Position numbers and translations under genes: made by a program. Shown piece after piece: positions 61,282-63,678 of a stretch of 64,000 nucleotides of DNA (position 1 is the stretch's first letter; each line of letters starts with the position of its first letter). The DNA is from Anaerosomatales bacterium (GTDB taxonomy: Bacteria > Actinomycetota > Coriobacteriia > Anaerosomatales > SLCP01). The notes under the pieces were generated by a model. It made no database searches and was not told where the DNA came from. It worked only from the letters and a program-made list of their open reading frames with translations. The DNA lies in contig JARGFT010000003.1 in assembly GCA_029210645.1 (NCBI GenBank), forward strand, positions 109,045-173,044, given 5' to 3'.

Positions 61282-63678
61282 ATGCAATCTGCGTCGGGTG
61301 TGGCGTCCATCGCCGAGGACACCGGGGGTTTCGACAACCGGATGCCCACGATACTCACCGTCTTCGGTGCGACCGGCGATCTCATGGCGCGCAAGATCGT
61401 GCCGGCACTCTTCTATCTGCGGGGGAAGGGCGAACTGCCCGAACGCTTCGCGGTCGTCGGCTTCTCGCGGCGTGACTGGAGCGACGACGACCTGCGCTCG
61501 CGGGCTCGCGAGATCCTCGTACAGCGCTTCTCCGACGCGGATGCCGACGACGTCGAGGAGTTTCTCTCACGCTTCACCTACGCGCGGGGCTCTTTCGAGG
61601 ATGCTGCGGCGTACGACGGACTCGCCTCCCATCTGCGCACGATTGACGAGGGATGGGGAGTGTGCGCCAACAAGCTCTTCTACCTCGCTGTGCCACCCGA
61701 GCACTACCGAACCATCCTCGGCCGGCTTGCCGAGAGCGGGCTGACCGAGCCGTGCAGCGACCTGACCGGTTGGACGCGCGTACTCGTCGAGAAACCCTTC
61801 GGCGATGACTCGCGCACCTCTCAGGAGCTCGATGAGTTCCTCGGCAGTCTTTTCAGGGAGGACCAGATCTACCGTATCGACCACTACCTCGCCAAAGAGA
61901 TGCTGCAGGGCATCATGAACTTCCGGTTCACCAACAACCTGCTCGAGACTTCATGGGACCGCAGCGCGATCGAGTCGATAGAGATCTCGCTGCTCGAGTC
62001 GATCGGGGTGGAGAAGCGCGGTAGGTTCTACGACGGGGTGGGGGCGCTGCGTGACGTTGGCCAGAACCACCTGTTGCAGATGCTTGCGCTCATCACGATG
62101 GACCAGCCGGCGAGCCGGGGAGCTGCAGCGATCCGTCAGGCGCGGTCCGAGCTGCTCCACGGCCTGAGGCCGCCCGCACCCGAGGAGGTCGCACACGCAA
62201 GCTTCCGGGCGCAGTACGACGGCTACCGCGGGATCGAAGGTGTCGCCCCGGAATCCGATACCGAGACCTACTTCCGGCTGCGCTTCGAGATGACCGGACG
62301 GCGCTGGGCCGGTGTGCCGGTGACCTTCCAGGCAGGCAAGCGTCTCGGCGAGCCACGCAAGGACATCGTGGTCACGTTCCGCCACCCGTACCACTGCCTC
62401 TGCGACAAGTGGACCCACTACCAGAACCGGGTGATCTTCAAGCTCGAGCCGACCGACTCGATCGAGATCGAGTTCTGGGCCAAGCGCCCGGGCTTTGCCG
62501 ATGAGGTGGAGCTGCGCACCTTCGACTTTTTCCTCTACGAGAAGGAGGAGAAGGCCCAGTACGTCGAGGAGTACGCCAAGCTGCTGCGCGACGCGATCGA
62601 GGGCGACCAGACGCTCTTCGTCTCCACCGATGAGGTCGCCGCGATGTGGGCGTTCATCGACCCGGTCTTTCGGGCATGGCACGAGGGCGCGGTGCCGCTG
62701 GAAACCTATGAGCCCGACTCGGCCGAAGTCACGGTGCGTGCTGCCGATGTCGTTGCGCAGCCCGCCGCGCGCGGCAGCGTAGGCGTGGTTGGGCTCGGCA
62801 AGATGGGGGTCGGCCTCGCGCTCAACCTGGCCGAGCACGGGTGGCGCGTGGTTGCGTACAACCGGACACCGGAGAAGGTAGACGAGGTGGTGGCGCAGGA
62901 CCGCTCGGCCGAGGGCGTGTACTCGCTTGCCGACCTGGTCGGCGCGCTCGAACCGCCGCGCACCATCTGGCTCATGCTCACGGCCGGCAAGCCCAACGAT
63001 CAGGTGCTCTTCGGCGAGGGAGGCCTCGCCGGGCTGCTCGACCCCGGCGACGTGGTCGTGGACGGCGGCAACTCCTACTACCGCGATGCGGCGGAGCGCG
63101 GGAAGCGCCTGGCCGAGCACGGTATCGGCTTCATGGACTGCGGTACGAGCGGCGGCCCTGCAGGCGCACGCACGGGTGCCTGCCTCATGATCGGGGGCGT
63201 GCGCGAGGAGTTCGAGCGACTCGAGGCGCTCTTCGCCGATGCCGCGCTACCCGACGCCTACCGGTTCTTCGACGGCCACGGCGCGGGCCACTTCGTGAAG
63301 ATGGTCCACAACGGCATCGAGTACGGGATGATGCAGGCGATCGCCGAGGGTTTCCAGATCATGCGCGAGGCGGAGTTCGACCTCGACCTGACCGCCGTCG
63401 CCGATGTCTACCAGCACGGGAGCGTGATCGAATCACGTCTGGTCGGCTGGCTTGGGGAGGCATTCGAGCTGCACGGCGAGGCGCTCGAGGGTGTCTCGGG
63501 AATGGTCGGACATACCGGCGAGGGCGAGTGGACCGTGCGCACTGCCGAGGAGATGGGGCTGGAGGCACGGGTCATCCGCGGTGCGCTCGAGTTCCGCAAG
63601 GAGTCCGAGCGCGATCCGAGCTATGCGGGGCAGGTACTCTCGGCGCTGCGCAACCGCTTCGGAGGGCACGCGATGTAG
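61282..63678 (+). CDS. Bifunctional glucose-6-phosphate dehydrogenase / 6-phosphogluconate dehydrogenase fusion (Zwf-Gnd)
   Basis: 798 residues from ATG 61282, with AGGGAG nine nt upstream. Residues ~20-480 are Zwf: FGATGDLMARK (NADP loop), RIDHYLAKE (~198, substrate-binding), RGRFYDGVGALRDVGQNHLLQ and the late TETYFRLRF. After a short linker, residues ~498-798 are a short-type Gnd: VVGLGKMGVGLALNL, DGGNSYYRDA (~594), GTSGGPAGARTG and the catalytic K673, H676, N677 in FVKMVHNGIEYGMM, ending RNRFGGH as in YqeC/GndA. Both sites look intact, so it would run the first and third steps of the oxidative pentose phosphate path. No lactonase domain is present. Confidence 0.96.
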   Translation: MQSASGVASIAEDTGGFDNRMPTILTVFGATGDLMARKIVPALFYLRGKGELPERFAVVGFSRRDWSDDDLRSRAREILVQRFSDADADDVEEFLSRFTYARGSFEDAAAYDGLASHLRTIDEGWGVCANKLFYLAVPPEHYRTILGRLAESGLTEPCSDLTGWTRVLVEKPFGDDSRTSQELDEFLGSLFREDQIYRIDHYLAKEMLQGIMNFRFTNNLLETSWDRSAIESIEISLLESIGVEKRGRFYDGVGALRDVGQNHLLQMLALITMDQPASRGAAAIRQARSELLHGLRPPAPEEVAHASFRAQYDGYRGIEGVAPESDTETYFRLRFEMTGRRWAGVPVTFQAGKRLGEPRKDIVVTFRHPYHCLCDKWTHYQNRVIFKLEPTDSIEIEFWAKRPGFADEVELRTFDFFLYEKEEKAQYVEEYAKLLRDAIEGDQTLFVSTDEVAAMWAFIDPVFRAWHEGAVPLETYEPDSAEVTVRAADVVAQPAARGSVGVVGLGKMGVGLALNLAEHGWRVVAYNRTPEKVDEVVAQDRSAEGVYSLADLVGALEPPRTIWLMLTAGKPNDQVLFGEGGLAGLLDPGDVVVDGGNSYYRDAAERGKRLAEHGIGFMDCGTSGGPAGARTGACLMIGGVREEFERLEALFADAALPDAYRFFDGHGAGHFVKMVHNGIEYGMMQAIAEGFQIMREAEFDLDLTAVADVYQHGSVIESRLVGWLGEAFELHGEALEGVSGMVGHTGEGEWTVRTAEEMGLEARVIRGALEFRKESERDPSYAGQVLSALRNRFGGHAM

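Follow-up and report, generated by a model that had tools for sequence, protein, structure and literature searches.

The window, a stretch of 64,000 nucleotides from an Anaerosomatales bacterium (contig JARGFT010000003.1), carries near its end a single uninterrupted frame coding for a protein of 798 amino acids, in which a glucose-6-phosphate dehydrogenase (Zwf) domain is followed by a linker and a 6-phosphogluconate dehydrogenase (Gnd) domain of the short type (Table 1). The start codon is uncertain, the first residue of most homologs lying approximately 17-21 residues into the frame, and residues 1-18 are of very low confidence in an AlphaFold2 model of the protein. The Zwf half matches its family profile at full length (TIGR00871, 445 bits, cut-off 400.6, profile positions 2-467 of 486). 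The Gnd half, with the approximately 300 residues expected of a short-type enzyme, is recognized over residues 500-797 by both TIGR00872 (309 bits, cut-off 297.2) and NF007161 (326 bits, cut-off 271). An earlier note on this DNA had proposed such a frame, and it is borne out, as there is no internal stop and both halves exceed curated cut-offs. Among homologs, the linker varies in sequence and differs in length by a few residues.

Table 1. Features of the zwf-gnd fusion locus and of a hydrolase gene found next to unfused zwf. Coordinates are those of the window unless a locus is named.
Feature	Coordinates	Strand	Basis or remarks
zwf-gnd fusion gene	61282..63678	+	798 aa; start codon uncertain, alternatives being M21 (61342) or a start further upstream
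Zwf (glucose-6-phosphate dehydrogenase) domain, residues 22-481	61345..62724	+	TIGR00871, PF00479, PF02781
Inter-domain linker, residues ~482-498 (~17 aa)	62725..62775	+	Alignment of homologs; AlphaFold2 helix 482-492
Short-type Gnd (6-phosphogluconate dehydrogenase) domain, residues 499-798	62776..63675	+	TIGR00872, NF007161, PF03446, PF00393
N527-R528-T529 codons, NADP-type cofactor motif of Gnd	62860..62868	+	Alignment, comparison with structures
Beta-propeller gene, 3′ part, convergent to fusion	63716..64000	-	Full gene L004:4761-6410, 549 aa
PF04199 'cyclase' hydrolase beside zwf	L193:365-1006	-	Also L190, L191, L185, L079, L167, L168, L073, L107

The cofactor and catalytic motifs, which the same note had described as intact in both halves, can indeed be read in the sequence. 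The Zwf half possesses the GxxGDL cofactor motif (GATGDL, residues 29-34), the RIDHYLxKE signature (RIDHYLAKE, 198-206), QNH (261-263) and the catalytic histidine, while the Gnd half has GLGKMG (504-509), DGGNS (594-598), SGG (623-625), K673, H676, N677 and E680, and the tail R790..FGGH796. When 15 fusions from across the order are aligned, almost every one of these positions proves invariant (exceptions being A30, A204, and K507), including the catalytic K673 and E680, the SGG and the tail RxxFGxH of the Gnd half; its lysine, glutamate and FGGH also align with those of the solved relatives 8ihe, 10gw, and 6vpb. The AlphaFold2 model, obtained from a shallow alignment (mean pLDDT 79, pTM 0.63), has both halves folded and gives little on their mutual placement. 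With this model, the best 50 Foldseek matches listed are all G6PD.

The source assembly, of 1.98 Mb and with a listed completeness of 100%, has two such fusions, the second being a paralog on another contig with 65% identity to that of the window, and these are its sole G6PD_C and 6PGD matches. The earlier note had suggested searching for the same architecture in related genomes, and full-length, stop-free fusion matches were found in at least 44 of the 61 genomes of the order (Anaerosomatales/OPB41, class Coriobacteriia), one of them a genome in a single contig (G019). The remaining 17 genomes, mostly draft assemblies, have partial matches, often with pieces at contig ends, or none. No complete stand-alone Zwf was identified in the 61 genomes, the partial matches being located for the most part at the edges of contigs, and a class-wide search of 248 genomes gave neither a fusion nor a Zwf-half match outside the order among the matches listed. 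An artefact of assembly or sequencing that joined two genes is ruled out by the recurrence of the fusion in 44 genomes, by the two paralogs in one genome and by the single-contig genome, its probability being practically nil. The Zwf-Gnd fusion is thus confirmed as a real natural arrangement, kept throughout the order and also in some Patescibacteria, as described below.

Both halves are under purifying selection, as dN/dS between close relatives is approximately 0.1-0.25 in each. This bears on the question of whether one half could be catalytically idle and retained for structure or regulation, in which case the protein would not be truly bifunctional. The tail of the Gnd half is modelled by AlphaFold2 at low confidence, which would be in keeping with an idle half; however, the active-site residues of both halves are invariant, selection on the two is similar and the source genome has no 6PGD-family gene beyond its two fusions, all of which make an idle half very improbable. 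From these features we infer catalysis by both halves, the fusion being a conserved and probably bifunctional, NADP-using enzyme.

With regard to the cofactor, the name of TIGR00872 implies NAD specificity. The earlier note, which described the short-type Gnd as often NAD-specific, had suggested that the fusion might make both NADPH and NADH. Lactococcus lactis Gnd, an enzyme of the long type, uses NADP and has the residues YNR at the place, after the second strand of Gnd, where the fusion has Asn527-Arg528-Thr529. In contrast, the structure of Mycobacterium tuberculosis Gnd2, which is labelled NAD-dependent, has Asp-His (YDH) in place of this Asn-Arg. Comparison with these labelled structures therefore points to an NADP-type motif in the fusion rather than to NADH production by the Gnd half, and since N527 and R528 are invariant in the 15 aligned fusions of the order, NADP appears more likely for both steps. 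One subclade of fused Patescibacteria has an NAD-type aspartate at this position and may possess an NAD-using version of the enzyme.

Oxidative pentose phosphate enzymes are already known to occur as natural fusions. Those of G6PD with 6-phosphogluconolactonase (6PGL), found in Plasmodium, other apicomplexans, Giardia, Trichomonas and as animal H6PD, join steps 1 and 2 of the oxidative pentose phosphate pathway, whereas the bacterial fusion joins steps 1 and 3 and has no step-2 domain. The view of the earlier note that known fusions link Zwf to the lactonase instead is not the whole story, as a G6PD-6PGD fusion (XP_002183714.1) was reported in the diatom Phaeodactylum tricornutum by Stover et al. 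(2011), although its annotation is disputed (PMC3148214). As described, it shares with the bacterial protein that G6PD and 6PGD are encoded in one frame. The diatom fusion is apparently confined to P. tricornutum and its closest relatives and was dropped in a later JGI annotation, and the P. tricornutum genome still has 6PGD as separate genes, besides a gene for 6PGL (PMC3148214). The bacterial fusion differs in that it is order-wide and also present in Patescibacteria, has a Gnd of the short type and occurs where no PF01182 lactonase was found. This contested diatom gene was the sole published Zwf-Gnd fusion found and no bacterial one was found in the literature. In the description of the first Anaerosomatales isolates the pentose phosphate pathway was called incomplete and the fusion was not mentioned (PMC9686372).

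Fusions of pathway enzymes are usually taken to link consecutive steps. In this case it is steps 1 and 3 that are linked, and the arrangement is retained across an order, with the stages of its assembly visible in Patescibacteria, where zwf and gnd occur as separate genes, as overlapping genes, as genes split by one in-frame stop and as fusions. Continuous fusions were identified in at least 15 Patescibacteria genomes (from a scan of GTDB contigs and a sample of 380 Patescibacteria), with approximately 45-58% identity to the window protein per half. In several others zwf and gnd are adjacent or overlapping, and in three (G269, G349, G392; loci L156, L161, and L162) they share a frame with exactly one stop between them (TGA, TAG, and TAA, respectively), possibly representing pre-fusion or broken-fusion states. 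The closest unfused relatives in the trees include the zwf-gnd and zwf-gnd-pgl operons L072/L194, L076 and L164/L192, which have the same Zwf and short Gnd subfamilies in the same gene order. Unlike the fusion, these encode separate polypeptides, and all three genomes have a PF01182 lactonase, its gene lying after gnd in L192 and L194.

In the trees of both the Gnd and the Zwf part, the OPB41 fusions form one group nested within the Patescibacteria zwf-gnd group, although many inner forks are unsupported. For this reason the fusion probably has its origin in a patescibacterial zwf-gnd operon and then moved horizontally into the ancestor of OPB41, transfer in this direction being the simplest account of the nesting from which it is read. 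A single origin, with all fusions forming one clade, was rejected by AU tests (p 0.001 for Gnd, 1e-38 for Zwf) under the given alignment and model and for a constrained group that was named after the trees had been seen; several fusions, or some fissions, must therefore have occurred.

Taken together, it is considered likely that the gene encodes a bifunctional oxidative pentose phosphate enzyme that originated in an operon of Patescibacteria and passed from there to the ancestor of the order. The N-terminal Zwf would convert glucose-6-phosphate and NADP to 6-phosphogluconolactone; the lactone would leave the enzyme and open to 6-phosphogluconate, either spontaneously or through a yet-unrecognised hydrolase; and the C-terminal short Gnd would then carry out the oxidative decarboxylation of 6-phosphogluconate to ribulose-5-phosphate, probably with NADP again. 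Tethering may serve to hold the two NADPH-making enzymes together at a 1:1 ratio. The fusion probably formed when the stop codon separating zwf from gnd was lost in the Patescibacteria operon, and its acquisition by the ancestor of the actinobacterial order would have been followed by retention and duplication.

The earlier note had singled out the lactonase step as the puzzle, and so it proved, as PF01182 lactonases were found neither in the order nor in the fused Patescibacteria. Profile searches gave no 6-phosphogluconolactonase match (PF01182 or PF10282) within the fusion protein and no PF01182 in the source genome. In the order as a whole, one PF01182 match exceeds the family cut-off and three further ones lie below it; the former, a gene of G045 (G045:C3:246899-247699, locus L029), is glucosamine-6-phosphate deaminase-like and was rejected as a Pgl. 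6-Phosphogluconolactone can open spontaneously. Its gamma form, on the other hand, does not open by itself, accumulates and is said to be toxic (PMC3148214), which raises a direct question as to how the lactone is handled in fused cells. Given the missing PF01182 and the reported accumulation of the gamma form, either spontaneous opening suffices at the flux needed, or an unrecognised hydrolase acts, or the fusion itself helps.

The last of these options would have the fusion replace the lactonase, with an active site opening the lactone or the proximity of Zwf and Gnd outpacing rearrangement to the inert gamma form, so that fused lineages could lose 6-phosphogluconolactonase. The absence of PF01182 from the source genome and the order, save for the deaminase-like gene and the three matches below cut-off, is consistent with this, as is its distribution in Patescibacteria, where it is present in 0 of 15 fused and 36 of 66 unfused zwf-bearing genomes (Fisher p 6e-5, kinship ignored; G259, also PF01182-negative, was left out of this count). 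In addition, PF10282 and PF08450 (SMP-30) were not found in the fused Patescibacteria except for one propeller. However, a kinship-paired comparison of fusion with Pgl loss comprises just two independent contrasts, too few to test, and the counts come from genomes of unstated completeness. PF01182 is also missing in many unfused zwf-bearing Patescibacteria, the fusion protein has no extra domain, and a yet-unrecognised lactonase may exist. Replacement of the lactonase by the fusion is regarded as unlikely, and that the protein itself opens or captures the lactone, two domains thereby covering three steps in a pathway without a dedicated 6-phosphogluconolactonase, as slightly more so.

Alternatively, a stand-alone lactonase, of the PF04199 type seen next to zwf in Patescibacteria without Pgl or an SMP-30/propeller protein, may be encoded elsewhere in the genome, the fusion then being a mere convenience. 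Matches to PF10282 and SMP-30 do occur in the order, mostly as weak propellers, with two strong SMP-30 matches in G059. One such propeller gene lies convergent to the window fusion and had been put forward, speculatively, in the earlier note as the missing lactonase. Its remainder, which runs past the window, was read and gives a complete protein, whose N-terminus is rich in Arg and in whose translation a hydrophobic stretch can be seen by eye ahead of the propeller; the protein is thus apparently membrane-anchored. Its match to PF10282 is weak (40.5 bits, cut-off 21.7, the best stretch covering 86 of 344 positions) and it adjoins the fusion in 10 of 22 loci. For these reasons it is unlikely to be a cytoplasmic lactonase and is treated as a neighbor outside the pathway. 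It may be mentioned that in several genera of the order a propeller gene is again found in convergent position beside the fusion.

As for the PF04199 type, an arylformamidase-like hydrolase of this family, with the motif HTGTHFDAPAH, adjoins zwf in eight genomes that lack PF01182. By comparison, PF04199 lies beside zwf in 0 of 10 fetched loci from PF01182-bearing genomes (Fisher p 0.002, kinship ignored), and none of the loci examined has both PF04199 and pgl as neighbors of zwf. No literature on a lactonase of this cyclase type was found. The hydrolase is a candidate non-orthologous 6-phosphogluconolactonase in the unfused relatives, where its position in the place of pgl makes it a concrete one. 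It lies beside none of the fusion loci examined, however, and with the propeller matches being weak and that of the window seemingly anchored, a separate lactonase in the fused genomes is tentatively viewed as possible, falling short of an even chance.

Returning to the bifunctional enzyme of Patescibacteria origin, its two copies in the source genome differ in their surroundings. The window copy adjoins serS in several genomes, while the second copy (L003) adjoins genes for glucokinase, phosphoglucose isomerase and a GH15 protein, neighbors which suggest that it is used in sugar breakdown. The bifunctional transaldolase/phosphoglucose isomerase (NF007080) is a further naturally occurring fusion in pentose phosphate and sugar phosphate metabolism, although the enzymes joined are different. 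In G009, the counterpart of the second copy lies beside a transketolase gene and a transaldolase/phosphoglucose isomerase fusion (L050:1998-4823, minus strand).
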